In this document: in pieces, positions 599 to 46,700 of the stretch
How the letters are laid out: every line of letters begins with the position of its first letter
Position numbering within the stretch: position 1 is the stretch's first letter
Source: an uncultured Elusimicrobia bacterium
Lineage (GTDB): Bacteria > Elusimicrobiota > Elusimicrobia > Elusimicrobiales > UBA9959
Length of the DNA: 49,087 bases
Assembly: GCA_903889965.1 (NCBI GenBank)
Contig: CAISZM010000086.1
Coordinates: 1-49,087, forward strand
Direction: 5' to 3'
Notes under the pieces: generated by a model
Database searches by the model: none
What the model was told of the DNA's origin: nothing
What the model saw: only the letters and a program-made list of their open reading frames with translations
Translations under genes and position numbers: made by a program

Positions 599-844
599 TC
601 AGTCCCGCACGACCCTTATGCAGCCGAACTCTATCCAGTCCAACGCCAGAGGGCTTACTATGGCGTTAGCAGGAACCCGTATGGACCCCGACCCCGGCAC
701 AAGCATTTTTTTAAGTTCAAAATCGCTTAAAAAGACCTTATGTTTTAATTCGGGCACCTTTTTGGGCGCGGACGCGCCCCCCCCCGGACTCCTCCGGGAG
801 AGGTGCTCCATTATAAGGTCTTCAACAGCGCCCTTTGTGAGCAT
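599..844 (-). CDS. Small BMC-operon protein (81 aa) with amphipathic N-terminus and C-terminal RVPANAIVSPLALDWIEFGCIRVV motif
   Basis: ORF collinear with and immediately downstream of BMC-H; short helix-like N-terminus MLTKGAVEDLIMEHLSRR. Confidence 0.6.
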   Translation of the reverse strand: MLTKGAVEDLIMEHLSRRSPGGGASAPKKVPELKHKVFLSDFELKKMLVPGSGSIRVPANAIVSPLALDWIEFGCIRVVRD

Positions 845-899
845 GATCCTGAGCGGCAGGCGGGGAGCGAACGAAACCGGCCTCCGCGTTTATCGCTCC

Positions 900-1193
900 T
901 TACGCCTTCACGGATATCTTCACCAGATACTTGTCCAGGTCGTCGGCGGGACGCGGTATGACGTGCATGCCGACAAGCTCCCCCGCTTTCTGGGCGGCGG
1001 CGGCTCCGGCTTCCACGGCGGCGCGCACGGCTCCGACTTCTCCGGCGCACAAGGTGGTGACGTAACCCGAACCTATTTTTTCGTAGCCGAGCAGCCGCAC
1101 CTTGGCGGCCTTGCTCATGGCGTCAGAGGCCTCTATCATACCTATGAAACCCTTGGTCTCTATCATTCCTAATGCTTCTTTCGCTTCTGACAT
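900..1193 (-). CDS. BMC-H hexameric shell protein
   Basis: [63 protein letters not shown]...HVIPRP; canonical BMC domain. Confidence 0.95.
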
Positions 1194-1227
1194 ATTTTCT
1201 CCTTTTCCCGTTTAACAGATAAATCCC

Positions 1228-1244
1228 GGGCGCGCAGCGCGCCC
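1228..1244. promoter_or_regulatory. Intercistronic hairpin GGGCGCG-CAG-CGCGCCC upstream of BMC-H
   Basis: Perfect 7-bp G+C stem in the deoC / BMC-H gap. Confidence 0.5.
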
Positions 1245-1251
1245 GACTTCC

Positions 1252-2253
1252 TCAGTACTGTCCCTTCGAGGCCTGGCCTCCGGAAACGATGGCTATGCTT
1301 GCGCTGGTCCCCAGGCGGTTTGCGCCGGCTTTTATCATGGCCTCGGCGATCTTGGCGTCCTTGATCCCGCCAGAAGCCTTTACGCCCATTTCGGGGCCTA
1401 CGGTCTCGCGCATCAGGGCTACGTCTTCGGGAGTGGCGCCGCCCGAACCAAAACCCGTGGAAGTCTTCACAAAATCGGCCTGCGCCTGCTTGGACATGCG
1501 GCAGGCGCGCACCTTCTCGTCTTTTGTAAGATAGGACGTCTCAAGTATCACTTTTAGCACCTTGCCGCGGGTGGCCTCGCGCACGGCCCTGATATCGTCG
1601 AGCGCAAGCTGGTCGTTACCGGATTTCAGCGCGCCGATATTAATCACCATGTCTATTTCTTCGGCGCCGTTGGCTATGGCGTCGCGGGCCTCTATGGCCT
1701 TGACCGTGGGGGTGGTAGATCCCAGCGGGAAACCGATGACCGTGCAGACCTTTACGGAGCTGCCCCTGAGAAGGCGGGCGGCCATGGCCACGTAGCCGGG
1801 GTTAACGCAGACGGAAGCGAAGCGGTATTTACGGGCTTCTTCGCAGAGCTTTCCTATTTCCTCCTGCGTAGCGTTGGCCTTCAGCAGGGTATGGTCTATC
1901 ATCCCGGCGATGGATGAGCTCTTTTCGTCAGGGTTGCAGAAGCTGACGCGCTCCACGCCCATCTCTTTGACCTGCCCGGGGGTGTAATTGGTGAGCGGGT
2001 TGCATTTCTGGCAGGAGGAACTGCAGGTGTTCTCCTCCAGCCGGCAGTCGCCCTGCCCGGAACACTGTTTTGCGGGAACGCTCCCGGCCCTGCCCGGCGC
2101 GGGCGGATTTACAAGCGGGTGCTGAAAGAGTTTGCCGGCCGTGCCCATGCCTACGGAATCGCCGGGCATCCTGCGCGGGGTGAAACCTTCGCCTTTCTCG
2201 CGCATTATCTTTGCCACTTCTGCAGCTATCTTCCGGATATCTTCGTCGTTCAT
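1252..2253 (-). CDS. deoC: Deoxyribose-phosphate aldolase with ~110-aa N-terminal extension (putative encapsulation helix plus Cys-rich segment)
   Basis: DERA motifs [17 protein letters not shown] and [10 protein letters not shown] present; N-terminus [42 protein letters not shown]. Confidence 0.95.
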
Positions 2254-2258
2254 GTGTC

Positions 2259-2534
2259 TTATTCTCCTAAATGGACCCTGTCCACTATGCCGGCTATAAC
2301 GGTGCGCACCGGCGCGCCGGGATTCTTCAAGATCTTCCTGGCTGAGCCGCCCTCGTCCAGCACCAGCACGGTATCGCCGGGACCGGCCCCCTGCCCGCCG
2401 TCGAGCGCCAAGGCGGCCTCGCCGACAAATTTATTCCGGCTGTCCAAGGCCTTCACCAGCAGCAGCGTGGCGTTTTTAAGCCCCGGGTGCTTGCGCGTGG
2501 CCCACACATTACCGATAACTTTCGCTATGAACAT
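2259..2534 (-). CDS. BMC-P (EutN/CcmL family) pentameric vertex protein
   Basis: [31 protein letters not shown]...[18 protein letters not shown]...AIVGIVDR-like EutN pattern. Confidence 0.93.
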
Positions 2535-2563
2535 CCGAAAACTCCAGTTTCAGGCCGCAGGCT

Positions 2564-2875
2564 TCAATTTAGGCCGTGACCCGGGATCGACTTGCCGTCT
2601 ATTATTCCCACTATCGCCGCGTCTACCGGAGGCAGGGGTGTTCCGACCGCGGTTTCCCCCTCCCACCCTTCGAAGGCCACTATCGCCTCGCGCGAAGCCA
2701 CGAAAAAAACGGTTTCTCCTGCCCCGGAGCCGACCGTATCCCCGGCCACCAGCGGCTCGCCCGAGGGCTTGTCGGTCTCCCAGTCCAGCGGCTGGATGAG
2801 CAAAAGCGTCTTCTGTTCCATGCCGCAGCATTGCCTGGAACAGAATACCCTGCCTATGACCTTGGCTTGCCTCAT
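2564..2875 (-). CDS. BMC-P (EutN/CcmL family) pentameric vertex protein
   Basis: MRQAKVIGRVFCSRQCCGMEQKTLLLIQPLDW...AGDTVGSGAGETVFFVASREA...VDAAIVGIIDG. Confidence 0.92.
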   Translation of the reverse strand: MRQAKVIGRVFCSRQCCGMEQKTLLLIQPLDWETDKPSGEPLVAGDTVGSGAGETVFFVASREAIVAFEGWEGETAVGTPLPPVDAAIVGIIDGKSIPGHGLN

Positions 2876-2900
2876 AAATCGCCGATTCCTTCAACTCTCT

Positions 2901-3347
2901 TCAGCAGCAGCGCTGCTCTATCGCCGTTATCTTATCAAGGCGCTTCTGGTACTTGCCGCCCTCAAAAGGGGTGTTAAGCCAGACCTTTACCATCTCCTGC
3001 AGGGCCAGGTCGCCGTGCGTTTTCCCGCCCAGGCACAGCACATTGCAATCTTCGTGGGCCGAGGCGAAACGCGCGGAGATTATATCGTAGGCGCCCACGG
3101 CGCGTATGCCGTGCACCTTGTTGGCGGCGAGCGGCATGGCCCCGTTGAAGCCGTCCACCAGCACGGCGCGGTCGAATTCCTTCCTGCGCACGGCCTCGCT
3201 GACCAGCAGCGCTATGTCCGGGAAGTCCACGGGTTCGACGGAATAACAGCCGAAGTCGGCGACATCGTGCCCCAGCCCCTGGAGGAACTTCTTAAGTTTT
3301 TCCTTGGCCTCAAAACCCGCGTGATCCGCGCCTATAACCAGTCTCAT
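2901..3347 (-). CDS. rpiB: RpiB/LacAB-family sugar-phosphate isomerase homologue
   Basis: MRLVIGADHAGFEAKEKLKKFLQGLGHDVADFG...PLAANKVHGIRA...NVLCLGGKTHGD...FEGGKYQKRLDKI; family motifs clear, active-site segment divergent (see findings). Confidence 0.88.
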   Translation of the reverse strand: MRLVIGADHAGFEAKEKLKKFLQGLGHDVADFGCYSVEPVDFPDIALLVSEAVRRKEFDRAVLVDGFNGAMPLAANKVHGIRAVGAYDIISARFASAHEDCNVLCLGGKTHGDLALQEMVKVWLNTPFEGGKYQKRLDKITAIEQRCC

Positions 3348-3376
3348 AATATTCTCCCGGTATGAACAGTAAAAAG

Positions 3377-3925
3377 CTATAGGGCCGCGCCCAGGTGTTC
3401 ATGCGCGTTGGGTATGACTATGCGGCTCACCACGGCGTCCTCGCCGATGGCCTTCACCCCGGCGGCCACAGCTGTGCGCACCGCTCCCACTTCGCCCGTA
3501 ACCGTAAAATAGCCCTTGCCGCCAATGCCCTTGCCAGTGTTGACCTCCGCCACGTGAACGAAAGCCGCCTTGGCGGCGGCGTCGGCTGCGAACAGGGCGG
3601 GCAGCGCTTCCTTGGTCTCCACCATTCCCACGGCCCCGAGCGTCTCCCCCTTCACTTTCTTATTCAGGGCCGCGAGCGCTCCGGAATGAACATTGCGTAT
3701 TATGCTCCGCGAAACGACGGTTCCGCCCGCTATTTCCGCCCCCTTGGCGAGCGCGGATTCCACTTCGCCCACCGTACCGGAGATCACTATGATGTATTTT
3801 CCTTTTGAAATGGCCTGGTGGATCTCGGGGTTAACGCCGGCGGCCTTGCACATCGCGTCAAGGGTTTCAAGGCCCTTCGCTATCGACGAGGTTTCGATCA
3901 GACCTAAGGCTATATTTGCCTGCAT
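3377..3925 (-). CDS. BMC-T trimeric (tandem BMC domain) shell protein
   Basis: Two BMC domains in 182 aa (ALGLIETSSIAKGLETLDAM... / GAVGMVETKEALPALFAADAA...). Confidence 0.93.
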   Translation of the reverse strand: MQANIALGLIETSSIAKGLETLDAMCKAAGVNPEIHQAISKGKYIIVISGTVGEVESALAKGAEIAGGTVVSRSIIRNVHSGALAALNKKVKGETLGAVGMVETKEALPALFAADAAAKAAFVHVAEVNTGKGIGGKGYFTVTGEVGAVRTAVAAGVKAIGEDAVVSRIVIPNAHEHLGAAL

Positions 3926-3983
3926 AAAGTGCTCCTTGTGCTATCGGGAACCGAAAAAACGGTGAAGACTTCCCGCTTCTCTG

Positions 3984-5393
3984 TCACGCTATCCTCAAGT
4001 CCCCCACCACGCTGCACTGCAGCGGCCGCGCGAAATGGCTGGTCTTGGTAATGCCGTCGCCCGTGGGTGTGCCTATGGACATGGAGGCGTAGCCTTCTCC
4101 CATTCCGAGGCCGTGCAGCGTGCAGGCGTTCTTGACGAATATCGAGCAGGCCATGCGGCGGCTCATCAGCGTCAGGTTTTTGACGTTGGTGGAGTAGATG
4201 CCGGCGGTGTGATGGTGCCCGCCTTCCGCGGCGTAAGCCAGCTCTATCGCCGCGTTCATATCGCGCGCCATGGTCACCGGCAGCACCGGCATCAGCTGCT
4301 CGCTGAACACAAAGGGGTGGTCGTTGGGAACTTCTCCCCAGATCACGCGTATGTCGTCCGGGAGGTTAAGACCTATGGACTTCGCGATCACCGACGGATT
4401 TTTGCCGACAAAATCGCGGTTTAGCTTGGGTTCGCGGCCGGGTTCGATTATGGCTATCTTCGCGAGCGCATCCATCTGCGCGCCGGTCAGCTCGTATGCG
4501 CGCGGGTCGAGGCGCATGGCTTCCAGAAAGCGGGAGCGCGCGGCTTCCAGCACTATAACTTCCTTTTCAGCTATGCAAAGAACGTTATTATCGAAACCGC
4601 AGCCCGTTATTATCTCCCGCGCGCAGTCCGGGAACACCGCCGTTTCGTCAACCACTATCGGCGGATTGCCGGGGCCGGCGGCTATGGTCTTGCATGCTTT
4701 TCCGGCCGTCATCGCGACTTTGACTATGGCCGGGCCGCCGGTAACGATGTTCATGCGGCCCTTGGGATGGCACAGCAGCTGGCGCGTGGCTTCCTGCGTG
4801 GGCTTAAAGATCGTGGTCACAAGGTTCGCCGGCCCGCCCGCGGCAACTATGGCCTTGTCCAGCACGCGCACGGCGTCCTGCACGCAGCCCTTGGCGGCGG
4901 GGTGCGGCGAGAAAACGACTGAATTCCCGGCCGATAATATCCCGATGGCGTTGCTGATGATGGTGGCGACGGCATTGGTGGACGGGGTGATGGCCGCGAC
5001 CACGCCGAAAGGCGCGTACTCCACCAGGGTAAGGCCTTTATCGCCGGTGTAGGAGACAGAACGCAGGTCTTCCACCCCGGGAGTACGGTTGGCCACCACC
5101 AGGTTCTTCAAAATTTTATCTTCGACCCGGCCCATGCCGGTTTCCGCCACCGCGAGTTCAGCCCAGCGCCTGGCGTTGGAGCGCGAAACCTCGCGCATTG
5201 CCGCTATTATCTTCCCGCGCGCCTCCAGCCCCAGCTCCTGGAAACCGGGCTGGGCCTTCTCAGCGGCGCTGACCGCTTCGTCCACGGTTTCAAAAACCGG
5301 GCCGCCGTCCGGGCAGGCGACTTCGGCCTGCCCGCCGAGGTTCTTTACCACTTCGGAAACGATCTTTTTCAGGTCTTCTTCGCTTAGGGACAT
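3984..5393 (-). CDS. pduP: CoA-acylating aldehyde dehydrogenase (PduP/EutE type) with N-terminal encapsulation-peptide-like helix
   Basis: Start at MSLSEEDLKKIVSEVVKNLGG (ATG 5393, within the longer ORF to 5462); FDNNVLCIAEKEVIV catalytic Cys region, ITPSTNAVAT, GPGNPP. Confidence 0.93.
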   Translation of the reverse strand: MSLSEEDLKKIVSEVVKNLGGQAEVACPDGGPVFETVDEAVSAAEKAQPGFQELGLEARGKIIAAMREVSRSNARRWAELAVAETGMGRVEDKILKNLVVANRTPGVEDLRSVSYTGDKGLTLVEYAPFGVVAAITPSTNAVATIISNAIGILSAGNSVVFSPHPAAKGCVQDAVRVLDKAIVAAGGPANLVTTIFKPTQEATRQLLCHPKGRMNIVTGGPAIVKVAMTAGKACKTIAAGPGNPPIVVDETAVFPDCAREIITGCGFDNNVLCIAEKEVIVLEAARSRFLEAMRLDPRAYELTGAQMDALAKIAIIEPGREPKLNRDFVGKNPSVIAKSIGLNLPDDIRVIWGEVPNDHPFVFSEQLMPVLPVTMARDMNAAIELAYAAEGGHHHTAGIYSTNVKNLTLMSRRMACSIFVKNACTLHGLGMGEGYASMSIGTPTGDGITKTSHFARPLQCSVVGDLRIA

Positions 5394-5433
5394 AAGAACT
5401 CCGCCTTTCCGCCGACTCTCACCGCACCGAGGG

Positions 5434-5451
5434 GGCGCCCCGCCGGGCGCC
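5434..5451. promoter_or_regulatory. Intercistronic hairpin GGCGCCC-CGCC-GGGCGCC upstream of aldehyde dehydrogenase
   Basis: Perfect 7-bp inverted repeat between BMC-P and the aldehyde dehydrogenase start. Confidence 0.45.
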
Positions 5452-5458
5452 GCTGCCC

Positions 5459-5767
5459 TCATTCGGTCATCTTGTCCGATGACTTCCTGAACACTATTTT
5501 TCCGTCCTTCTCTATCGTACCCACTATGGCAAAAACGGTGCAGTCCGCCGGCGTATTTTCCGTTTTTGAAGTCTGTCGTGCGCTGGAACCCTGCACGAGC
5601 AGCACCAGCTCGCCCGTACCGGCGCCCACGGCGTCTATGGCCACGAGGGTGTTGCCGCGCGGCTTATCGTCGAGGCCTACGGGCTGGACCATCAGCAGTT
5701 TTGTGCCCACAAGTTTATCGTCTTTGCGGGTACAGACAACGTTACCCACTACTCGTGCGAATAGCAT
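5459..5767 (-). CDS. BMC-P (EutN/CcmL family) pentameric vertex protein
   Basis: MLFARVVGNVVCTRKDDKLVGTKLLMVQPVGLDDKPRGNTLVAIDAVGAGTGELVLLVQGSSAR...; start chosen at ATG 5767. Confidence 0.93.
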   Translation of the reverse strand: MLFARVVGNVVCTRKDDKLVGTKLLMVQPVGLDDKPRGNTLVAIDAVGAGTGELVLLVQGSSARQTSKTENTPADCTVFAIVGTIEKDGKIVFRKSSDKMTE

Positions 5768-5867
5768 GAATCCTCCACCGTTCGGTAAGCCGAAAAGCGC
5801 AAAGCCGGAAAAGCCGCTCTGGAGCACCTACCCCGGACTTTTTACGCTTTGCGTTCGCGCTTTACGC

Positions 5868-6164
5868 TCACTTCCGCTTGGCTTCGCTTATGGGCAGCCG
5901 GCCTTCCAGGTCCCCGTGGGGCTGCGGTATAACGTGTACGCTCACGAGTTCCCCGACTTTCTGCGCCGCGGCGGCGCCGGAATCGCAGGCGGCGCGGCAG
6001 GCGGCGACTTCACCCCTGAACATAATGGTCACGAGGCCCGAGCCGATCTTTTCATAACCCACTATTTTGACGTTGGCTGATTTAACAGCGGCGTCGGCCG
6101 CTTCCACGCAAGCCACGAAGCCTTTTGTTTCTATCATTCCGAGTGCTTCCATTGTATCCTCCAT
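5868..6164 (-). CDS. BMC-H hexameric shell protein
   Basis: [59 protein letters not shown]. Confidence 0.95.
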
Positions 6165-6184
6165 TTACCGGCTGTGGCGGATAT

Positions 6185-6235
6185 CGGTCAGCGGGCCGGA
6201 TAAGGATCCGGCCCCGCCCCGCATACGCCTGACCG
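6185..6235. promoter_or_regulatory. Intercistronic nested hairpin upstream of second BMC-H
   Basis: Outer CGGTCAG (6185-6191)/CTGACCG (6229-6235); inner GGGCCGGAT-AAGG-ATCCGGCCC (6193-6214), perfect 9 bp. Confidence 0.55.
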
Positions 6236-6249
6236 CTACCGCATGCTTT

Positions 6250-6882
6250 CTAAACTATAAACGCCGCTGCGCCGTTCTTCAGGCCGGCGGCGTTGGCCTC
6301 CTCCACGTCCAGGTGCAGTTCGAGGGCGAACTTTTCCGAAACGCGGCAGAGCACATTTTCAAAAATGGTTTCCCGGTCCGTGCCGCGGCCGCAGAGCACG
6401 CGCACCTCGGAACCGTCCTTTATTTTCAGGGACTCGGCGTCCCTGGGATGGAAATGGATGTGGCGCTTGGAAAGTATCACGCCCTTTGTCACGGTCACGG
6501 AGCCCTTCGGGCCGGTGATCTTTATGCCGGGAGAATTATCCAGCTTGCCGGAATCACGTATGGGCGGCTCCAGCCCGAGGAGGCGGGAGTCGGCCAGCGA
6601 CACCTCCACCTGCGTGTAGGGGCGGTAGGGACCGATCATGCGCACTTTGTTTATCGAGCCCTTAGGGCCCTCCACGGTTACAGCTTCTTCACAGGCGTAA
6701 AATCCGGGCTGCCGCAGCTGGCGGAACAGGCGGGGTTCCGAGTCCGCGCCGAAAACGGCCTTAAAATCCTCTTTAGTGAAATGAACGTGCCGGTTGGAGA
6801 CGCCCACGGGTACGGGCGCGGAGGAGCGCCCCTGCCGGAGCTTAAGGTCTTCGAGTATCTCTTTTAAAAGTTTCTCGTCCAT
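6250..6882 (-). CDS. pduL: PduL-type phosphotransacylase
   Basis: VGVSNRHVHF, SKRHIHFHPRDAE and LELHLDVEEANAAGL metal-binding/PduL motifs; N-terminus MDEKLLKEILEDLKLRQG. Confidence 0.93.
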   Translation of the reverse strand: MDEKLLKEILEDLKLRQGRSSAPVPVGVSNRHVHFTKEDFKAVFGADSEPRLFRQLRQPGFYACEEAVTVEGPKGSINKVRMIGPYRPYTQVEVSLADSRLLGLEPPIRDSGKLDNSPGIKITGPKGSVTVTKGVILSKRHIHFHPRDAESLKIKDGSEVRVLCGRGTDRETIFENVLCRVSEKFALELHLDVEEANAAGLKNGAAAFIV

Positions 6883-6926
6883 TCAGTCGGATCCAGATCT
6901 ATCCCACGCATGCAGCCCGCCGTCAG

Positions 6927-7706
6927 CTACCTCGCCATTGCCGCCTGGAAATGTATGACACGGAGGAACTTGTCGGCCTTGAGGCTTTCCCCTCCTACGA
7001 GGGCGCCGTCTATATCCGGCTGGGCCATCAGTTCGTCCACGTTATCGGCCTTCACGGAGCCGCCGTAGAGAACGCGGACGGCTTCGGAGTAAGGTTTGCC
7101 GTAGATGCGCTCCATCTGCTTGCGCACGAAAACATGGGCGTCCTGCGCCTGGTCCGGAGTGGCCGTCTTGCCGGTGCCTATGGCCCAGACCGGCTCGTAG
7201 GCGATGACCACTTTGGCGGCCTCGGCCGCGGTAATGCCGGTGAACGCGCCGTTAAGCTGGGTTTCGAGCACGCGGTAGGTTCTCTGGCTCTCGCGCTCCT
7301 CGAGGGTTTCGCCTATGCAGAGCACCGGCACGAGTCCCGCCTTTATCGCGGCTTTCATCTTCCTGTTCACGACCTCGTCGGTCTCGAGGAAGATCTTGCG
7401 GCGCTCGGAATGGCCTATAATCGCGTGGGTGCAACCGGCGTCCTGAAGCTGCGACGGGGCCACGGCGCCGGTGAAGGCGCCTTTTTCTTCCCAGGCCACG
7501 TCCTGGGAGGAAAGGAATATCTTCGAGCCGGACAGCGCCGCCTTTACGGCGTGAAGGCTGGTGAAAGAGGGAGCGAGGAGAACCTCGTGCTTAAGGTCCG
7601 GGTCCAGTCCCTTCTTTATGGCGGCGGCGAGTTCGGCCGCCTCCTTCGAGTTGAGGTGCATTTTCCAGTTCCCGGCTATCAGCGGTGTTCTTTTGGTAGA
7701 AGCCAT
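6927..7706 (-). CDS. tpiA: Triose-phosphate isomerase
   Basis: [67 protein letters not shown]. Confidence 0.97.
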
Positions 7707-7744
7707 TTTTAGAGCCCCCTTAAATAATTAATTAGATTATACAA

Positions 7745-8293
7745 TTAAAATATCTCCCGCAGGAGTTCCGGCCTGGGCTGCGGTATCACTATTTTTTCGA
7801 CCAACAGCCCCTTCTTGGCCGCTACGGCGGCGCCGGCGGCTACCGCTGTCTCGGCGGCGGCAACCGACCCGGTCAGGGTGACGAAGGCTTTCCCGCCGAT
7901 GGCCATGGCCAGGCGTATCTCTATCAATTTTACCGGCGCGGCCTTCACGGCGGCGTCCGCGGCCTCTATAAGGGCTGACACGGAAAAGACCTCTATAATG
8001 CCCAGCGCCTCAAGCCCCTCCACGACCGTGGTGCCCTCTATGGCCGGAAATACCTCTGGATGGATGTTGGGGATAACGAAGCTGTCCACAAGCGCGTGAG
8101 CGGCCTTGGCCGCTCCGGCTTCGACGGCGGCGCTGACGTCGCCAACTTCGCCGGCGGCGAGTATAATGTATTTGCCGGGGCAGATTGTGCGGGAAAGGAG
8201 AAGTTTGATCCTGGAGGTTTTAAGCATGGCGTCGGCCGCTTCCAGGCCCTTGGCCACGCTCGAGAGTTCAACCCCGCCTATTGCATTGTTCAT
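7745..8293 (-). CDS. pduT: PduT-like BMC-T shell protein with putative [4Fe-4S]-ligating Cys
   Basis: Two BMC domains; LLLSRTICPGKYIILAAGEVG and VDSFVIPNIHPEVFPAI resemble PduT. Confidence 0.9.
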   Translation of the reverse strand: MNNAIGGVELSSVAKGLEAADAMLKTSRIKLLLSRTICPGKYIILAAGEVGDVSAAVEAGAAKAAHALVDSFVIPNIHPEVFPAIEGTTVVEGLEALGIIEVFSVSALIEAADAAVKAAPVKLIEIRLAMAIGGKAFVTLTGSVAAAETAVAAGAAVAAKKGLLVEKIVIPQPRPELLREIF

Positions 8294-8335
8294 ATTTCAC
8301 CATTCGGCCCGTTATGCACGGACGCCCCGCCGGCG

Positions 8336-9679
8336 CTACGCCGTTATCTCCACATATTTGCCGTTCACCGCGCGCACGGTGCCCGAAATGCTCGCATGCA
8401 CGGGGCAGCCGAGCTGGTCGGCCGCGACGTCCCCGACCACCGCGCCTTTTTCCACACGCTGGCCCTCAGTAACCGAAGGCACGCAGGCCGGGCCGATGTG
8501 CTGGCTCATCAATATCCTGACGCGCGCGGGACTGTAGGCCGGCTCGGTCCAGGGCGCGTCCTTATTGTAATCGTCCAGGCCCAAACGACGGACCAGTTTG
8601 GAGACCGGCACCTTGCGGAATTCGCGCACTGGATGGACTTCGGGGGCGCGGCCTGAATTAAGCGGTGAATTTTTAAAACCTGTTTTCATGGCGCGCAGGT
8701 CCGCCTTGGCTGAAACGCAGGCCTCCCGCGGGTTAAGCCCCTCGGGGCAGGAGTAGAGGCTGCAAAGCGAACATTCGCAGCAGAGCAGGCCGTAAACGCT
8801 GTTCAGTTTATGCTCCGGCCCGGCGGAAAAAAGCAGGCTGCGCATAACGCGGTGCGGGCGCACGTCGTGGCCAAGCAGGTAGCGCGGGCAGAACTCTGTG
8901 CAGAAAGAACACTGGTCGCAGGCGGAGCGGCCCACGCGCGAGAACAAAGCGCGGCTCTGCGTTTTTTTTAATATAAGCGGGTGGTTCTTCGGAAGCACGA
9001 TAATGCCCGCGGAAACCCTGGTGACGGGGGCCGAAAAATCCGTCATCACCTTGCCCATCATCGGGCCTCCGTCGATGGCCGCCGGGTCTTTTATGGCGAA
9101 TCCCCCGGCGAGTTCCGCGGCCTCGGCCCAGGTTATACCGACCGGGACCCTGAAGGTTGAAGGTTTTTTTACGGCGCCGGCGACCGTTATGAATTTTTCG
9201 GTGACCGGCGTTCCGGGCGAAGCGGCGTTATAAAGCGTCTCCACGTTGCTGACCACGCAGCCCGCGTCCAGCGGGATCCCCCCGGGAGGCACTATGCGGC
9301 CCGTGGCCTCGTACACCAGGCAGTGTTCGTCGCCCGCCGGGTAATAATCCCCCATCTTCAGCACCGATATATTCCTGCGGTTTTTGGCTATGGCCTCGAG
9401 GCGGGGAATGATACGCTCGTGTTTTTTTTTGATGCCCAGTATGCCCCGCCCCGCCCCCACGGCCCGCATCAGCATTTCAAGCCCGTCGAAGACCTTCTCC
9501 GGAAAATACTCCAGTATCTTCTGGTCTTTTTTTAGCAGCGGCTCGCATTCGGCGGCGTTGGCCAGCGCGTACTCGGCCCTGCCCCTCGCTTTAACGTACG
9601 CGGGAAAACCGGCTCCGCCGGCCCCGACCACACCGGAAGCGCGCAGCTTGCTGCTGAATTCTGCTGAAAAATCGGTCAT
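8336..9679 (-). CDS. pduS: PduS-like (RnfC-related) Fe-S flavoprotein oxidoreductase
   Basis: VVGAGGAGFPAYVK, ANAAECEPLLKKDQ, SNVETLYN, CDQCSFCTEFCPRYLLGH and CCECSLCSLYSCPEGL. Confidence 0.92.
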   Translation of the reverse strand: MTDFSAEFSSKLRASGVVGAGGAGFPAYVKARGRAEYALANAAECEPLLKKDQKILEYFPEKVFDGLEMLMRAVGAGRGILGIKKKHERIIPRLEAIAKNRRNISVLKMGDYYPAGDEHCLVYEATGRIVPPGGIPLDAGCVVSNVETLYNAASPGTPVTEKFITVAGAVKKPSTFRVPVGITWAEAAELAGGFAIKDPAAIDGGPMMGKVMTDFSAPVTRVSAGIIVLPKNHPLILKKTQSRALFSRVGRSACDQCSFCTEFCPRYLLGHDVRPHRVMRSLLFSAGPEHKLNSVYGLLCCECSLCSLYSCPEGLNPREACVSAKADLRAMKTGFKNSPLNSGRAPEVHPVREFRKVPVSKLVRRLGLDDYNKDAPWTEPAYSPARVRILMSQHIGPACVPSVTEGQRVEKGAVVGDVAADQLGCPVHASISGTVRAVNGKYVEITA

Positions 9680-9692
9680 TTTAAAGTGAAAC

Positions 9693-9718
9693 CGCGAAGC
9701 CGGAAGGCCGGCTTCGCG
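9693..9718. terminator. Perfect 11-bp hairpin CGCGAAGCCGG-AAGG-CCGGCTTCGCG between aminotransferase and pduS
   Basis: Inverted repeat; followed on the minus strand by GTTTCACTTT, a weak T-tract, so terminator or processing site. Confidence 0.45.
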
Positions 9719-9742: not shown

Positions 9743-10975
9743 TCATTTCCCGGCGGCGGCCATGCGTTTCTTTACCGCGGTGGCGAGCCGCTTTATCCCT
9801 TCCTCTATCTCCTCCGGGGTGGGATAAGAGAAGTTCAGGCGCATAGTATTCTTTCCTGAACCGTCGCAGTGGAAAGCCGAGCCTATCACATAGGCTACAT
9901 TTTCCTTCAGGGCCTCCTGGAACATATCGTCAGCGCTCATGTTTTCCGGCAGACGCACCCACAGGAAAAGTCCGCCCTCGGGGCTGGTCCAGGTAACGCC
10001 CTCGGGCATATACTTCTTAAGGGCGGCGACCATAGTGTCTTTCTTCATCTTATAGGTCTTTTTGATGACCTCCACGTGCTTCTCGAAGAAGCCGCTGCGC
10101 AGGAAATCGGCGGCGATAAGCTGGTTCAGGCTGGACGAGCAGAGGTCAAGCGACTGCTTCAGTATTTCCATCTTTTTAATTATCTGCGGGTGCGCGAGTA
10201 TCACCCCGAGCCGCAGGCCGGGCGCGAAGGTCTTGGAGAAGGTGAAAAGCGAGATTATGTTGCCTGTATCGCGGGTTTCTTTATCCATGCGGTAAAGCAT
10301 GTCGGGGGCCTTACCCTCGAAGCGTATCTGCCTGTAGGGAGAGTCCTCTATTATGGCCACATTATACTTGTCCGACAGCTCTATGACCTTCTTGCGCTTT
10401 TTGGCGGAAAGCGTGACGCCGCTGGGGTTCTGGAAATCCGGGACCAGGTATATGAACTTGTAATGCTCGTCCTGGGCCCTGAGCCACTTGAGCTTGTTCT
10501 CCAGCTCGTCGGTATCCACCCCGTCATCTTCGATATTCACGCCTATGAATTCGGCGCCGTAGGACTTGAACACCTGCAGGCCGCCCATATAGCTTGGCTT
10601 TTCCACAATCACGGGGTCCGAGGCGTCTATGAAGAGACGGCCCACCATATCCAGCGCCTGCTGGCTGGCCGTGGTGACGATAAGGTTTTCCGGTTTCGCG
10701 TCTATCCCTTCGTGTTTCTTCAGGAACTTGACGAACTCTTCCTTCAGCTCCGGCAGGCCGTCGGTGGGGCCGTACTGCAGGGCCACGCTTCCTTTTTTAG
10801 CCATTATTTCTTTGACCGATTGGGCTACGAAATCGTACGGGAAATGCTGGGGGTCCGGCAGGCCTCCGGCGAAGGATATCACCCCCGGCTTGTTGGTTAT
10901 CTTCAGCAGCTCGCGTATTACGGAAGCCTTGGTGCGCCTTGGCGCGGTGGCGATGTTCTTTGCGATGTCTATCAT
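9743..10975 (-). CDS. PLP-dependent class I/II aminotransferase (2-aminoadipate/LysN-like)
   Basis: VISFAGGLPDPQHFPYDF, QYGPTDGLPELKEEF, YLVPDFQNPSGVTLS, FTFSKTFAPGLRLG. Confidence 0.88.
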   Translation of the reverse strand: MIDIAKNIATAPRRTKASVIRELLKITNKPGVISFAGGLPDPQHFPYDFVAQSVKEIMAKKGSVALQYGPTDGLPELKEEFVKFLKKHEGIDAKPENLIVTTASQQALDMVGRLFIDASDPVIVEKPSYMGGLQVFKSYGAEFIGVNIEDDGVDTDELENKLKWLRAQDEHYKFIYLVPDFQNPSGVTLSAKKRKKVIELSDKYNVAIIEDSPYRQIRFEGKAPDMLYRMDKETRDTGNIISLFTFSKTFAPGLRLGVILAHPQIIKKMEILKQSLDLCSSSLNQLIAADFLRSGFFEKHVEVIKKTYKMKKDTMVAALKKYMPEGVTWTSPEGGLFLWVRLPENMSADDMFQEALKENVAYVIGSAFHCDGSGKNTMRLNFSYPTPEEIEEGIKRLATAVKKRMAAAGK

Positions 10976-11085: not shown

Positions 11086-12369
11086 TCACTTTTCGATTTG
11101 CGCCGCGCCGGAGGGAGCGGAGAAATACTCCATATTCTCCCGGTAATAGTCCTTCTTCGCACCGCTGACGGCCGACTTGTAAAGCCCCGAGTAGCGAGCC
11201 GCGGCCCGGGGATATGTTCTATCCCTGAGCCCCAGCAGGTCTTCCGGGAACGGCCGGCCGGTGGCTCGGCAGGCTTTTTCCAGCGATTTGAGGTGCTGGC
11301 TCAGCGATTCAAGCCCCATCTTCGCGGAATTATCCCGCATGAAAGAAGCGGCCTCGAGAATAGCCAGCGCCCCCTTCGCCCTCAGCGCTTCCAGCTCACC
11401 GGGCGGCAGGCCGTCCCCGGCCGAGTTCTCGTCGGCCACAGCCAGACAGTCCAGTGCCAGCGGGTAATTTTTTTCCTCAAGGGCCGTCCCACCGATGAGC
11501 AGCAGCGCATCCGCGCTGAAAGAGGGCCAGCGGGTTTCGTAAAAGTCCCGGATGAATCGCGCGTACTCCTCTTTTTGCGCGCTAAGCCTCGCAAGGGCCG
11601 CGCTGTTCTCGGCATATTCCCCCACGCTCCCGGCGGCATAGGCGAATATCCTGGCGTCAGCGACGCTGTTCTTCTGCGCGCTCTCGGCATGTTCCATGCT
11701 TATGTAGCCGCCCCGCCGTTCCTCGTAATTTTTGCGTATCTTTTCCCTGTACAGCCCGGGGTCGAGCGAAAGCGCGAAGTAGGTGGCGAAAATATCCGCC
11801 GTGTATATATCGGTATAGGTCCCGCTTATAAAATCCCTCAGCAAAGAAGGGTCGGCCTTCATGCGCTCGTGCACGTAGATATCCTCCGTAAGGTAAGCCT
11901 CGTACTCGAACTCGAGCGGATTCGCCCCCGCATCCCGCCGGTATTCGGGATAATGGTAGTACTGCAGCGCGTGCACCAGTTCGTGCAGGTACAAGGGGGC
12001 GGCGCGTTTTACCAGCTCCTCCCTCACCTCCTTGTTGCCCCAGAGAACGTCCACAACTCCGGCTTCATCGAAGCCTTTGGCCGCGAAGAATTTCAGGATG
12101 AAGCGCGAATTAAAATAGACCGCGTTGGACCCGGGATCGAACCAGGAGAACCAGTCCGACGGGTCCCTGCGCGCCAGGACGCGGAGCGCGGTATAGCCGG
12201 GGCCGGCCCCGGCGAGTTTCCCGTAAAGCTCCCGGCCGGAGGGGGCGGAACTTATGACCGCCTCGAATTCGGCTTTCAGTTTCGCGCTGAGCCCGGCGTC
12301 GTGCCGGTACGCCATAGCCCGCGCGGGCATGAAGATCAGGACCGCGCATATCAGCGGTGGCATTCTCAT
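11086..12369 (-). CDS. Exported protein with HEXXH motif, putative zinc metallopeptidase
   Basis: Signal-like MRMPPLICAVLIFMPARAMA (start ATG 12369) and LYLHELVHALQYYHYPEY. Confidence 0.55.
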   Translation of the reverse strand: MRMPPLICAVLIFMPARAMAYRHDAGLSAKLKAEFEAVISSAPSGRELYGKLAGAGPGYTALRVLARRDPSDWFSWFDPGSNAVYFNSRFILKFFAAKGFDEAGVVDVLWGNKEVREELVKRAAPLYLHELVHALQYYHYPEYRRDAGANPLEFEYEAYLTEDIYVHERMKADPSLLRDFISGTYTDIYTADIFATYFALSLDPGLYREKIRKNYEERRGGYISMEHAESAQKNSVADARIFAYAAGSVGEYAENSAALARLSAQKEEYARFIRDFYETRWPSFSADALLLIGGTALEEKNYPLALDCLAVADENSAGDGLPPGELEALRAKGALAILEAASFMRDNSAKMGLESLSQHLKSLEKACRATGRPFPEDLLGLRDRTYPRAAARYSGLYKSAVSGAKKDYYRENMEYFSAPSGAAQIEK

Positions 12370-12450
12370 CGTGATATTATAAGATTTGACATCGGGAGGC
12401 GGCAATGTATAAGATTTAGACAGTCTGGATTAAATTTCACAGGAGGCACT

Positions 12451-15063: not shown

Positions 15064-15762
15064 ATGGCTGAAACTGAATTAAAACCCGTAAATGGCGTTT
15101 ATAAGGTGCCGGACAAGGGCTTTGTGAAGCTTGTCGAATTCATGGGCGGAGACCGGCGCGCCCTCGACTCGGCCAGGGTTTCGTTCGGGTCTTCCTCAAA
15201 GGGGGAAGCGCAGGACAGGAAGCTCATAGAATACCTGCTTGAGAACGGCCACCTGAGCCCTTTCGAACACTCCGTATTCCAGTTCCACGTAAAATGCCCC
15301 ATATTCGTAGCGCGCCAATGGATGCGCCACCGCATAGCTTCCTACAACGAAATTTCGGCGCGTTACACCGAAGTACCCGACGAATTTTACATGCCGGACT
15401 CCTTCAGGGCCCAGGACCGGATCAACCGCCAGGGTTCGACGCGCTCCGGCGCGCTGGAGCAGGAAAAAATGCTGGGGATCTATGAAAGGTCCATAAAGGC
15501 CTCGTACACCGCCTACCGGGAGCTCCTTGAGGCGGGCGCGGCGAGGGAGATGGCGCGCCTCGTCCTGCCTGTGGCGCAATATACTCAGTTCTACTGGAGC
15601 GTCAACGCCCGCAGCCTGCTGAATTTCATAGCCCTGCGCACGGATGAACACGCCCAGTACGAGATGCGCCGCTACGCCGACGCCATACTTGAGATATTCC
15701 GCGAAAAAATGCCCTGGACATGGGAAGCTTATGCCAAAATCCATAAAATCAAAAGTTCTTAA
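15064..15762 (+). CDS. thyX: FAD-dependent thymidylate synthase ThyX
   Basis: RHRIASYNEISARY motif; FEHSVFQFHVKCPIFVARQWMRHR. Confidence 0.96.
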   Translation: MAETELKPVNGVYKVPDKGFVKLVEFMGGDRRALDSARVSFGSSSKGEAQDRKLIEYLLENGHLSPFEHSVFQFHVKCPIFVARQWMRHRIASYNEISARYTEVPDEFYMPDSFRAQDRINRQGSTRSGALEQEKMLGIYERSIKASYTAYRELLEAGAAREMARLVLPVAQYTQFYWSVNARSLLNFIALRTDEHAQYEMRRYADAILEIFREKMPWTWEAYAKIHKIKSS

Positions 15763-16672
15763 TTTCTCCGCCGTCCTGCTGCTGGCCTCCGCGGCTCTGG
15801 CCGGCGGAAAAACAGGCGAAAAAGCCCCCGCGGGCCCGGCCGAGCGGCCCGCCGCAAAGGTGCCGTATGCCGTCGAACGGCCCGTGGCGGGACTTACGCA
15901 GCGCAAGATAAAGACCGGGGACATAGAGGTGTACGCCGGGGTGACCGGTATCCCCACCGCCCAGGATACCTACGACGTTCTCGCCAACTCCGACGGCAGG
16001 ATAGAGGAGGTTCAGGCGGAGATCTTCAGTTTCGTGACACCGAAGACGGTGCTGGCCACTATGGTTTCCAGCGAAATGGCGGCGCTGCTGGACGCCAGCA
16101 CGGAGGACTCCCGCAAACAGACCGAGAGCCGCTGGCAGGACCTTTACAAGCTTTTCGACATAAAGCCGGAAGCGGAAGGCGTGATAACGAATATATACGT
16201 GGAGCCGAAAACCACTGTCAGCAAGGGGGACAGGCTTTTCACGGTGGCAAAAAAGGTCGTAATAATAGGCAAAAACACCGAGCCGCTCTACTCCGACCCG
16301 GCGCCGGGGATGACGGCGGAAATGGAACATGTCCGGAACCCGGACGAAAAATTCGAAACGCGCCTGATCAGCTTCGTAAAATATAAGAACGACCCGCGCT
16401 TCAGCCGCCTGTGGCTCGAGGTTACCGATCTTAAAGACGGGATAAAGATAGGAGAACAGTTCAACGGCACACTTTTCGTCGGAAAAAGCTCCAACACCAT
16501 GCTGGTGCCGCGCGGGGACTTGGTAGAGGCCGGCGGCCGCAGGTTTCTGATAGTCGAAGTGGAAACGGGCCTGGAAACGGGCAGGGAAGTGGAGATACTC
16601 CGCCACACCTCGCGCTATCTGGAGCCGGAATACCCCGGAGAAAAAAATGGAAAAGACCAAAAAGTCCGCTAG
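15731..16672 (+). CDS. HlyD/CusB-like periplasmic adaptor protein
   Basis: Signal peptide MPKSIKSKVLNFSAVLLLASAALAGG; EGVITNIYVEPKTTVSKGDRLFTVA and MLVPRGDLVEAGGRRFLIVEVETGLETGREVEI. Confidence 0.7.
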   Translation: MPKSIKSKVLNFSAVLLLASAALAGGKTGEKAPAGPAERPAAKVPYAVERPVAGLTQRKIKTGDIEVYAGVTGIPTAQDTYDVLANSDGRIEEVQAEIFSFVTPKTVLATMVSSEMAALLDASTEDSRKQTESRWQDLYKLFDIKPEAEGVITNIYVEPKTTVSKGDRLFTVAKKVVIIGKNTEPLYSDPAPGMTAEMEHVRNPDEKFETRLISFVKYKNDPRFSRLWLEVTDLKDGIKIGEQFNGTLFVGKSSNTMLVPRGDLVEAGGRRFLIVEVETGLETGREVEILRHTSRYLEPEYPGEKNGKDQKVR

Positions 16673-17345
16673 CATCTATTCCAGCTTCATGTTCGTTAAA
16701 CTGCAGCCGGAATTCCGCAGGCTGATATCGAACGAGAAGCTGGCCGCCAAGCAGGAGTTCGAGAACATGGTTGGTTCGTGCCAGGAGAAGCTCTTCCTGC
16801 GCACATACATGGTGTCCGGCCTGCGCGCGGATTCCGACATACTTTTCTGGCGCATGTCCGACGACCTGGCCTACCTGCAGGATACCTGCTCCAGGACTTT
16901 CTCCTCTGGCGCCGGACGCTACCTCACCCCCGTGCACTCGTTTTTGGGCGTGCACCACGGACCGGAAAGCACCGCGCTTAAAAAAGACCTGGATTTCGGC
17001 TTCCTGCCCAAAGACACCTTCGGGCGCCACCGCTATATGCTCCTCCACCCCGTGGTAAAGGCCCATACCTGGTACGAGCTCTCCGAGGTGGAAAGGGAGA
17101 ACCTGATGGCCGAGCGCGCCATCGTAGTGAACCGCTTCAGGGAAATTCAGGAGAACTTCTTCCTTTCGTTCGGGCTTGACGAGCAGGAAATAATAGTGGC
17201 GAGGGAGGCCAAATCGCTGGAGGACCTGATCTCCGCCACCCAGGAATTGCGGCAACAGCGCATAAAGAATTATACCGCGGTGGATAAGCCGGTATTTTTG
17301 TGCCTGGGCAGGGATCTCAGGGAGATACTGGACGCGATCTGTTAA
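16647..17345 (+). CDS. Chlorite dismutase/HemQ-superfamily-like protein
   Basis: LRTYMVSGLRADSDILFWRMSDDLAYLQ, MLLHPVVKAHTWYELSEVERENLM; proximal His not apparent. Confidence 0.75.
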   Translation: MEKTKKSASIYSSFMFVKLQPEFRRLISNEKLAAKQEFENMVGSCQEKLFLRTYMVSGLRADSDILFWRMSDDLAYLQDTCSRTFSSGAGRYLTPVHSFLGVHHGPESTALKKDLDFGFLPKDTFGRHRYMLLHPVVKAHTWYELSEVERENLMAERAIVVNRFREIQENFFLSFGLDEQEIIVAREAKSLEDLISATQELRQQRIKNYTAVDKPVFLCLGRDLREILDAIC

Positions 17346-43741: not shown

Positions 43742-46700
43742 TTATCGGCAGTCTTTCCCGATAAGGGGGCCGTGGGGCACCATCTCGCCGTTGTTATAAT
43801 TGGACCAGGTGTGGCTGTAGCTTATCTCGGCCGTAATTTTGGGACCGAGATCCCACCCGCCGGCAACCTTGCCTCCCAGATTATTGGAGCTGGCCGCGGT
43901 CCCCTTCCTGAGGCCGGCGAAGGATATAACCCATTTTTTATCGGACTGAACGCAGGCGACCTTAACTTCCATGTCATATTCCTGCCGCTTGATGGATTTA
44001 TCCTGGTAATAGACCTTGCCCTCGTTCGTAGTCATGGCCGTACCGCCGCCGGCACCCCCGGTGTAAGTGCTGCCGAGGGGAAGCGCCTCGCCATTGGGAT
44101 TGCCGTAATCGAGGTGATAATCGTTAACATCCACCTGAACGGGTTTATTTTCATATCGCACGCACTCGTACACGTACCCTCCGACCCAGTAGCTGTATAC
44201 ATACTTTCCCTCAGCGCACCTTTTCGCGTACATGGGTTTCCCCTGCTGGTCATAGGCCTGCATTGTGGTCCGGCCCTTTACCAGCTGTACCGAGTCTATC
44301 TGGCTGGGAGGCGGAACGGGTTTCGCCTGCGGTGCGTCCGGTTTCGGGGCAGGGGGATTTTGACCCGCGGTCGGGGCCTGGGGCGTATCGGCAACCTTGG
44401 CCAGTTTGGCCGCGCTCTTCAAATTGTCATCGAAGAGCCTTGGATAGGACTGGGGGTTTTGCATGTCCATCTTATCTTTTATCTCCCCAAGTCTTTTCTG
44501 TATCTGGCCCACGCGATCCGCGGCGATATCGGGATTCTTCAGCTCGTTCTGCAAACGGCCGACCTCGCCCTGGTATTTCTGCATCGCGTTCAGATCGGTA
44601 TTTGCGGATCCCAGAAACTGTTTGCAGGCGGCGCTGTTGCATTCGCCGCTTTGGGCGACCTGGCCGTACCTGTTCTGCGCTGCTGAAACCGGCGTGCGCA
44701 TGTCTTTCAGAAGCGAGGAGGCGGAATCGGAGGCGGCTTTAATTCCGGCCGCTCCCGTGTTGCCGCCGTTGTTGCCCGAGGCGGAGCCTGAGCCTGTATC
44801 CCCCCCGTTGTCAGCGCCGGGAACGGAGGAACAGCCCCCGCCCGAGAAGTAACAGGGATCGACAAGGGCGGTAAGCTCGGATTGTGAAAGCTTGATCTCA
44901 GCCGCTAAAGTCCCTATCATCCCCTCGATATTGGCAAAGTCGCTGGCATATCCGCCGACCGAGGATTGCAGCTTGCTGCTCCTCATGGCGCTGGTGACGA
45001 AGTTAGAGGGAGCCGGCATAGCCGTCCGCTGGCCGCTGTTTATGCCCGCATCAAAAGCGTCCCAGGCTTTGGACTCTTCCTCCGCGACCTTCGAGCTGTC
45101 GAATTTGTGGTCCTGAGCCCAAAGGGTGTCCCAATCAAGGCCGCGCAGGCCGGCCACCGTGCGCATCGGGGCGTCTTCGGCCGCGCCGTCCGATTTAGCG
45201 GGAGCTGTTGAAACTACCACGGGGGGCCTTCCCGTTATCTTGCTCAGCTTCTCGGCCACGGGGGCGTCCGAATCCTTGATCTTATTGACGGCCGGAGGCA
45301 GGGCCGAATGCTCTTCCACCATATTACCGATGGACGCATACACGGATTGCAGCTGCTGATTATAGGCCGCAACCCTGGCCGTGTGCACCGCGAGCAGTTT
45401 GGCGGCGCTGGTAAGATTCGAATTTATCGAGGGGGCGTGCCGCGCTATTATCTCTTTTATGTGATCCGTATTCGTCTGCGCGGAAGCGACCATCTCCACA
45501 TTTTTCTCGGTCTTAACCTTGAGATTTTTGCCGGCCATGTCCGATTCGATCTTTTCCACGGCGGCCGCGTATTTTTTATAGTCGAGCTGCGTGGTATTGA
45601 ACGCCCCCTGCTCCGTGCTCACTACGCCTGAATAGGAGTTCAGGGCGGTCCTGGCGCCCAGGTTCAGGTTGGCCAGGATATTTTTAACGGGGCCTCCGGC
45701 CTGCGCGTTAAGCTTTTCAAAGCTCGCGGCGATGGACACAATGTAAGGCTTTGTGGCTTCATCCGGCTGGTTGTCGGCCACTAGTGCCTCGACCGCCACT
45801 ACCCGGCCTACTACTCCGGAAATTTCCGTGTCATAATCGGCGAACGTTTTCGCCGCCGAGTCTGAATAAGCCGCAGGGGTGTTAGCGGAAGCATTACCGC
45901 CCGAGGTTCCCCCCGAAGTTCCGCCCGAATTTCCGTCCGAGCTCCCTCCCGGAGTCCCCCCCGGGGTCCCTCCCGGGGTCCCTCCCGGGGTCCCTCCCGG
46001 GGTTCCTCCCGGGATCCCGCCCGCGCCGCCCGGGGCATACAGTTTCCCGACCGGCTTTACAGCCTTGCCGCATATGCAGTTTACCTGTCCACCGGCGCCT
46101 TTGTCCTTCCCGGCGGCTTCCCAGGAATAACTCTGGGCGCCCGGGTCATAGCAAAGGTCGACCGGGGCTACCTTATGGTATTGCTGAACCATCGCCGCGC
46201 AGTTGCCGTCCGGGCAGACGGCCGGCTGCCAGCAGTAAGACGTGGGTCCCGATGCGTCCATGCCGAAAGCGTGCTTCATACTGCTGCTTATCATGTCGTT
46301 GACGGTGCCGGTGACGCCGTTCACCAGGGCGGTTATTATCATCTTGGGGATCTCGTATTTCTTGAAGAATTCCCATTCCAGCGCCTTCTGCATGCGCATT
46401 TTAGCCGCCATCTCTTCGAGCGTCTCGCCGGACTTGCTCTTATCGTTCTTGTTGGTGGAATTTGAAGGATTAGTGGTCTTGTCGGACGTGGCGCCGGCTC
46501 CCAGACCTCCGTCGCTGTTCCCCAGGTTCACGGAATCCGCGGCCGCCTTATCCAGCGAGCGTATAGCCGAGTCCCCGGAAAAATTACCCGCCGCTCTGTC
46601 GCCCTGCGAGCGGAGCTTTTCAAAAGCGCCCCTTGAAGAGCTGTGCGGGGTGGAGGCCACGCCCTTATATCCGGCGGTGGCCACCGGGCCCACCATCGAG

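Follow-up and report, generated by a model that had tools for sequence, protein, structure and literature searches.

What do bacterial microcompartments (BMCs) of the sugar-phosphate-utilising (SPU) class use as fuel, and what is the role of the RpiB-like protein that accompanies their aldolase? Both questions are raised by an operon at positions 599-9679 on the minus strand of contig CAISZM010000086.1 (C86) from an uncultured Elusimicrobia bacterium. The entire contig (1-49087) is the window analysed here; the genome to which it belongs is 2.24 Mb in size and 90% complete, and its nearest relatives are Elusimicrobiota. The best overall explanation, which we regard as likely, is that the operon encodes a vertically inherited SPU metabolosome for 2-deoxyribose-5-phosphate (dR5P). 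Its probable task is the catabolism of the sugar in DNA that the cell scavenges.

An earlier note on this DNA described thirteen adjacent minus-strand genes. All of the genes that it named are present with the coordinates and strand given there, and only the count needs correction: the operon comprises 14 co-directional genes separated by -4 to 85 bp, the additional one encoding an 81-amino-acid (81-aa) protein at 599-844. The replacement in the RpiB active site, the sole triosephosphate isomerase (TIM) and the existence of shell-less relatives were also missed in that note. The features are given below in operon order, from position 9679 down to 599, followed by the upstream neighbour.

8336-9679, minus strand: PduS, a PduS-like flavin/[4Fe-4S] electron-transfer protein of the RnfC family with two four-Cys clusters (PF01512, RnfC_N, Fer4_17 and SLBB; TIGR01945 at 204.7 bits, below cut-off)
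7745-8293, minus strand: BMC-T1, PduT-like, pore motif T-I-C38-P-G-K-Y (TIGR02526 at 130.8 bits, below the cut-off of 250.3)
8180-8182, minus strand: codon of Cys38 of BMC-T1, the expected [4Fe-4S] ligand (from the sequence and from PduT-PduS binding in PMC2982820)
6927-7706, minus strand: TpiA (PF00121 at 312 bits; PF00121 and TIGR00419 both over cut-off)
6250-6882, minus strand: PduL phosphotransacylase (PF06130 at 230 bits; NF011652 over cut-off)
6835-6879, minus strand: putative encapsulation-peptide-like helix at the N-terminus of PduL, DEKLLKEILEDLKLR, suggested by the sequence pattern
5868-6164, minus strand: BMC-H1, EutM-like (NF012018 at 137.7 bits, over cut-off; PF00936)
5459-5767, minus strand: BMC-P1, likely start 5767, the open reading frame (ORF) extending to 5827 (PF03319 at 105.7 bits from residue 21)
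3984-5393, minus strand: CoA-acylating aldehyde dehydrogenase (AldDH), likely start 5393, the ORF extending to 5462 (NF011927 at 556.8 bits, over cut-off; the ortholog begins MSLSEE)
5334-5390, minus strand: putative encapsulation-peptide-like helix of AldDH, SLSEEDLKKIVSEVVKNLG, from the sequence pattern; the same in the ortholog of locus L113
3377-3925, minus strand: BMC-T2, pore motif I-S-K-G-K-Y, no Cys (TIGR02526 at 116.5 bits, below cut-off)
2901-3347, minus strand: RpiB-like protein of the SPU 'Asp type' (PF02502 at 144.5 bits, cut-off 24.7)
3153-3155, minus strand: codon of Asp65 of the RpiB-like protein, at the catalytic Cys position of RpiB (alignments, tally and tree)
2564-2875, minus strand: BMC-P2 (PF03319 at 72.9 bits)
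2259-2534, minus strand: BMC-P3 (PF03319 at 84.1 bits)
1252-2253, minus strand: DeoC, or deoxyribose-phosphate aldolase (DERA), with an N-terminal extension of ~110 aa (TIGR00126 at 295.9 bits, over cut-off, residues 115-323)
2197-2247, minus strand: putative encapsulation-peptide helix of DeoC, residues 3-19 (AlphaFold2 helix with predicted local distance difference test (pLDDT) values of 82-87, then a disordered linker)
1936-2064, minus strand: Cys-rich linker of DeoC, Cys64-Cys106, kept in most shell-bearing relatives (pLDDT <55)
900-1193, minus strand: BMC-H2 (NF012018 at 107.7 bits, below cut-off; PF00936 over cut-off)
599-844, minus strand: 81-aa protein with an N-terminal helix and a small C-terminal domain (VPANAIVSPLALDW), conserved in relatives (AlphaFold2 pLDDT 75.6)
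9743-10975, minus strand: pyridoxal-phosphate (PLP) aminotransferase (PF00155), an upstream syntenic neighbour outside the BMC set

The starts at 5393 for AldDH and 5767 for BMC-P1 are the likelier ones because the longer ORFs begin upstream of the conserved N-termini.

With very high confidence the locus is an SPU-type BMC operon, since it holds both defining enzymes of the class, a DeoC-type PF01791 aldolase and an RpiB-type PF02502 protein. They are accompanied by a BMC-H, BMC-T and BMC-P shell, by a core of CoA-acylating AldDH and PduL, and by TIM and PduS, as the earlier note had proposed. Its shell count also stands: PF00936 finds exactly six BMC domains in the genome (two BMC-H and two tandem BMC-T proteins) and PF03319, the EutN domain, finds three BMC-P proteins, all inside the operon and none elsewhere. 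The same gene order is repeated in dozens of Elusimicrobiota genomes, which excludes a chance arrangement. The left edge of the window is the end of the assembly and lies on the downstream side of the operon, where, according to the earlier note, a signature enzyme of another BMC class would refute its typing. None is present in the operon, and none was found among the downstream ORFs read in relatives that extend further; the next genes there are a GH84-like glycosidase and then unrelated genes. In the window itself a GH84-like beta-N-acetylglucosaminidase (PF07555) occupies 1-570, cut by the contig end and 28 bp past the last operon gene, and it is kept downstream in many relatives.

The SPU class and its proposed DNA-catabolic function have been in print since 2014. 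Eight loci were described in that year (PMC4207490) and >280 in 26 phyla in 2021 (PMC8217296); PF01791 and PF02502 are common to all of them, catabolism of DNA detritus was proposed (PMC4207490, PMC8217296), and TIM and PduS had already been seen in an Atribacteria SPU locus (PMC4207490). Elusimicrobia are not named in the main text of the 2021 catalogue (PMC8217296), and no experiment devoted to an SPU compartment was found in the papers searched. What is new here, across the class Elusimicrobia, is the sole TIM in the operon, the loss of the shell with TpiA kept, the RpiB Asp, the pairing of PduS with a Cys-pore shell protein, and the upstream nucleotidase and phosphate genes.

Judging from its gene content, the operon likely degrades dR5P to acetyl phosphate (acetyl-P). 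In the proposed scheme, whose encapsulation, substrate, flux direction and electron path we infer, nucleotides would be dephosphorylated, deoxynucleosides would be phosphorolysed, and dR5P would be formed by a DeoB-like mutase. Inside the shell, helix-tagged DeoC would cleave dR5P to glyceraldehyde-3-phosphate (G3P) and acetaldehyde, helix-tagged AldDH would convert acetaldehyde to acetyl-CoA and NADH, and helix-tagged PduL would convert acetyl-CoA to acetyl-P, with CoA regenerated. Acetate kinase outside the shell would then form acetate and ATP from acetyl-P, TpiA as the sole TIM would join G3P to glycolysis, and an alcohol dehydrogenase outside the shell would be an alternative electron route. 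What the sequence itself shows is the gene content and its conservation, the catalytic residues of DERA, the single TIM and the Asp of RpiB.

The catalytic Asp and two Lys residues of DeoC (D201, K263 and K292), which correspond to D102, K167 and K201 of the Escherichia coli enzyme, are invariant in the alignment. Elsewhere in the same genome, a purine-nucleoside phosphorylase directly adjoins a pyrimidine-nucleoside phosphorylase on contig C60, contig C56 encodes a DeoB-like protein that matches phosphopentomutase best, and acetate kinase and two 5'-nucleotidase genes are present. In several other families of the class, a UshA-type 5'-nucleotidase is close to TpiA in 23 fetched loci, and in many fetched loci of related families a HAD acid-phosphatase-like protein (below the Pfam cut-off) and a PiT phosphate transporter with a PhoU-like partner are near TpiA; in the loci examined gene by gene these nucleotidase, phosphatase and PiT genes lie directly upstream of it. 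Such a context fits the uptake of phosphate and nucleosides from nucleotides. The intact DERA residues, the enzymes found elsewhere in the genome and this upstream context all support the deoxyribose-phosphate, DNA-scavenging metabolosome put forward in the earlier note.

Several points weigh against this explanation. The DeoB-like mutase scores below the phosphopentomutase cut-off (226.5 versus 256), and the family to which the window belongs has neither the nucleotidase nor the phosphate-uptake genes beside the operon. TpiA and the RpiB-like protein have no obvious targeting helix and may be located outside the shell. A Fe-alcohol dehydrogenase is encoded elsewhere in most relatives, the window's genome having only a weak match. 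Finally RpiB, one of the two class-defining enzymes, has no place in a dR5P pathway as a true isomerase, because a 2-deoxy sugar does not permit the isomerase reaction of RpiB.

The last of these points leads to the RpiB-like protein itself. In characterised RpiB and LacAB enzymes a Cys base is essential (PMC3755991, PMC4783025). The protein of the window has Asp65 at this catalytic position (65/66), with Asp8, His9 and the ring-opening His98 retained in the alignments; it scores 127.4 against the TIGR01120 rpiB equivalog, below the cut-off of 138.65, and 139.5 against the broader subfamily model NF004051, over the cut-off of 135. A separate RpiB with the normal Cys is encoded on contig C69 of the same genome. 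Among 74 distinct shell loci, 65 carry the Asp type only, five carry a copy of each type, and four, all of one family, carry the Cys type only; the generalisation that every SPU RpiB has the Asp was rejected on account of these four. The Asp type also occurs in SPU loci of Chloroflexota, Bacillota, Acidobacteriota and 'Hodarchaeota'.

No ketose can be formed from a 2-deoxy aldose by isomerisation, so that with dR5P as substrate the activity still of use in an RpiB would be ring opening. That the RpiB-like protein is a non-isomerase is a tentative suggestion, and with similar reserve we consider it possible that the protein feeds DeoC by opening the dR5P furanose ring, or that it is a non-catalytic subunit of the LacA type; both roles are compatible with the dR5P metabolosome. 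The exchange of Cys for Asp in 70 of the 74 loci and the position of the two types on opposite sides of one branch of the tree point in this direction, with the reservations that the support of that branch is modest (Shimodaira-Hasegawa-like approximate likelihood ratio test, SH-aLRT, 89) and that four loci of one family have only the Cys type. The residues needed for opening a ring, which a 2-deoxy sugar can undergo, are kept while the base is lost, although the Asp may still work as a base. In LacAB the subunit without the Cys is LacA; it too carries an Asp here, and it is the source of the ring-opening His (PMC3755991). The five loci with one copy of each type are reminiscent of LacA plus LacB.

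An alternative that we consider unlikely retains the shell and the pathway and changes the sugar phosphate that enters them: RpiB would isomerise first, DeoC would be a broader aldolase, and DNA scavenging would be wrong. RpiB is part of all SPU loci (PMC8217296) and RpiB enzymes can be promiscuous (PMC4207490); moreover, the Asp could act as a base in place of Cys and shift the specificity, and MtRpiB employs a Glu at another position (PMC3755991). Against a different input, DeoC is a DERA over its cut-off with all catalytic residues, nucleoside phosphorylases and nucleotidases are encoded in the genome, and nucleotidase genes stand beside the operon in related families. It is very improbable that the compartment runs in reverse, building dR5P from acetaldehyde and G3P as an aldehyde sink. 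DERA is reversible, but AldDH and PduL in the operon and acetate kinase in the genome draw acetaldehyde to acetyl-P, and most shell-less relatives hold a short DeoC with no AldDH nearby, which fits ordinary nucleoside breakdown.

The dR5P metabolosome would be tied to glycolysis through TpiA. A TpiA search of the whole genome of the window gave exactly one match, the operon gene, and in nearly all of 137 genomes of the class TIM is likewise single, any further matches being few and either fragments or weak. The surroundings of the TIM gene were examined in 88 genomes, namely all sampled own-family genomes with a TIM plus a hand-picked set from other families, and in 63 of them shell genes lie within 8 kb of it. 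As the sole TIM of the genome, the operon TpiA must serve glycolysis too, and thus its presence in the operon is by itself no evidence of encapsulation; no targeting helix was seen in it.

In a tree of TpiA, genomes without a shell are interspersed with those that have one, and the well-supported branches require at least five changes. This pattern indicates that several lineages lost the shell yet kept TpiA with a short DeoC. The residual loci consist of TpiA-PduL-DeoC in genomes G006 and G017, TpiA-DeoC in G013 (less certain, the contig ending after DeoC) and in those shell-less genomes that were sampled from family f2, and TpiA alone in G019; in G006 and G013 TpiA still adjoins the same PLP aminotransferase gene as in the window. 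In all shell-less relatives the orthologous DeoC begins near the catalytic domain, without the targeting helix and the Cys-rich linker, whereas the DeoC of shell-bearing relatives mostly has an extension of ~100-150 aa made up of the helix, a GTAGK(V/I/L)F motif, a Cys-rich stretch and a GADR-type motif. AlphaFold2 models the DeoC of the window as a helix at residues 3-19, predicted with confidence, a disordered stretch and the barrel, in this order. The helix appears to have been lost along with the shell, as is expected of an encapsulation peptide. No metal site is claimed in the Cys-rich linker, which is predicted to be disordered.

Two variants of these loci were also observed. In family f5 (L149, L161, L164, L167 and L169) the RpiB is of the Cys type and DeoC, where readable, keeps GTAGKVF and is missing the targeting helix and the Cys stretch; there may be covariation between the type of RpiB and the DeoC extension. 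In L154 and L166 (G048 and G070), which are shell-less, the gene after TpiA-PduL is a different DeoC (38% identity); L154 has a double aldehyde dehydrogenase as well. The same pathway may run here without encapsulation.

A Cys-pore BMC-T is present in 33 of 33 distinct loci with PduS and in one of 41 without it, a tally in which related genomes are not independent and in which contig breaks remove both genes, as they are often neighbours. PduS is known to bind the [4Fe-4S] shell protein PduT, and electron export was proposed for the pair (PMC2982820); by analogy we infer that PduS and BMC-T1 would form an electron conduit here too. The idea that this pair is the only electron route was rejected, Fe-alcohol dehydrogenases being common in relatives.

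The 81-aa gene is kept at the matching place in relatives. Its product gave no Pfam or NCBIfam match, and a fold search with its model returned no match (best E 1.5). It has an N-terminal helix resembling an encapsulation peptide and a VPxNAIxSPLxxDW motif, which is reminiscent of the N-terminus of EutT. A motif resembling it is also found at the end of a 242-aa protein at 3226-3954 of locus L061.

L061 (JAEOTY010000051.1, 1030-11919), binned as 'Candidatus Hodarchaeota archaeon' (Asgard), is an SPU-like BMC locus with BMC-H, BMC-P, a BMC-T with VCPGKY, PduS, AldDH, an Asp-type RpiB, DeoC and acetate kinase, and with an ORF that reads as citrate synthase fused to PduL. Mis-binning or sequencing error may be involved; a BMC in an Asgard archaeon would, if true, be remarkable, and a quick literature search found no report of one. 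In L070 and L073, contigs labelled Gammaproteobacteria and Coxiellaceae, DeoC stands beside BMC-P, a BMC-T with ICPGKY and PduS, and L073 also has TpiA.

In the remainder of the window, a flavin-dependent thymidylate synthase (ThyX) motif, RHRxxSxNExSxRY, occurs in the ORF at 15064-15762 (plus strand), and a chlorite-dismutase-family protein (PF06778), possibly a haem-biosynthesis enzyme, is encoded at 16647-17345 (plus strand). Large minus-strand ORFs without a Pfam match are located at 43742-47353 (1203 aa), 47557-49050 (497 aa) and 11086-12405 (439 aa). A hairpin lies at 9693-9718, and no Rfam match to a regulatory RNA was found anywhere in the window. Promoter predictions numbered 9 against 4.4 expected from shuffles and terminators 21 against 16.4 expected; neither set was used.

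A joint reading, which we offer tentatively, is that the SPU 'RpiB' has been repurposed, for dR5P ring opening on behalf of the aldolase or as a LacA-like partner, and does not isomerise ribose-5-phosphate, and that the Elusimicrobia compartment, passed on vertically, would belong to the core of central carbon metabolism, with the sole TIM in its operon, so that lineages losing the shell must keep TpiA. The findings suggest that a BMC need not be an optional catabolic island and can have a tie to central metabolism. The class Elusimicrobia provides a natural experiment, with one operon in shell-bearing and shell-less versions, and the two questions of SPU fuel and RpiB role become simple tests with named residues and proteins.

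Among known systems, the SPU loci of Axen 2014 and Sutter 2021 (SPU1-7) are alike in having DeoC and RpiB, AldDH, PduL and shell genes, with PduS and TIM in the Atribacteria locus; peculiar to the window operon are the single TIM of its genome, the conserved 81-aa fourteenth gene, the Cys-rich DeoC linker and the Asp at the catalytic Cys of RpiB, on which we found no remark in those papers. Acetaldehyde metabolosomes of the Eut/EUT1 type likewise convert acetaldehyde to acetyl-CoA and acetyl-P by AldDH and a phosphotransacetylase, but there the acetaldehyde comes from ethanolamine lyase, and here from a class I aldolase. The PduS-PduT pair of Pdu compartments, whose binding is published (PMC2982820), resembles the window pair in its RnfC-family PduS with two Fe-S cluster motifs and its BMC-T with a pore Cys38; in contrast, the window operon has no B12 enzyme, both of its proteins fall under the curated family cut-offs tested, and their role would be limited to electron export or aldehyde redox. 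In LacAB galactose-6-phosphate isomerase, LacA combines the same Asp with a ring-opening His, and some SPU loci have a corresponding Asp and Cys pair, whereas the window has the Asp type only, far from LacA in sequence, and its adjacent aldolase is DERA, not LacD.

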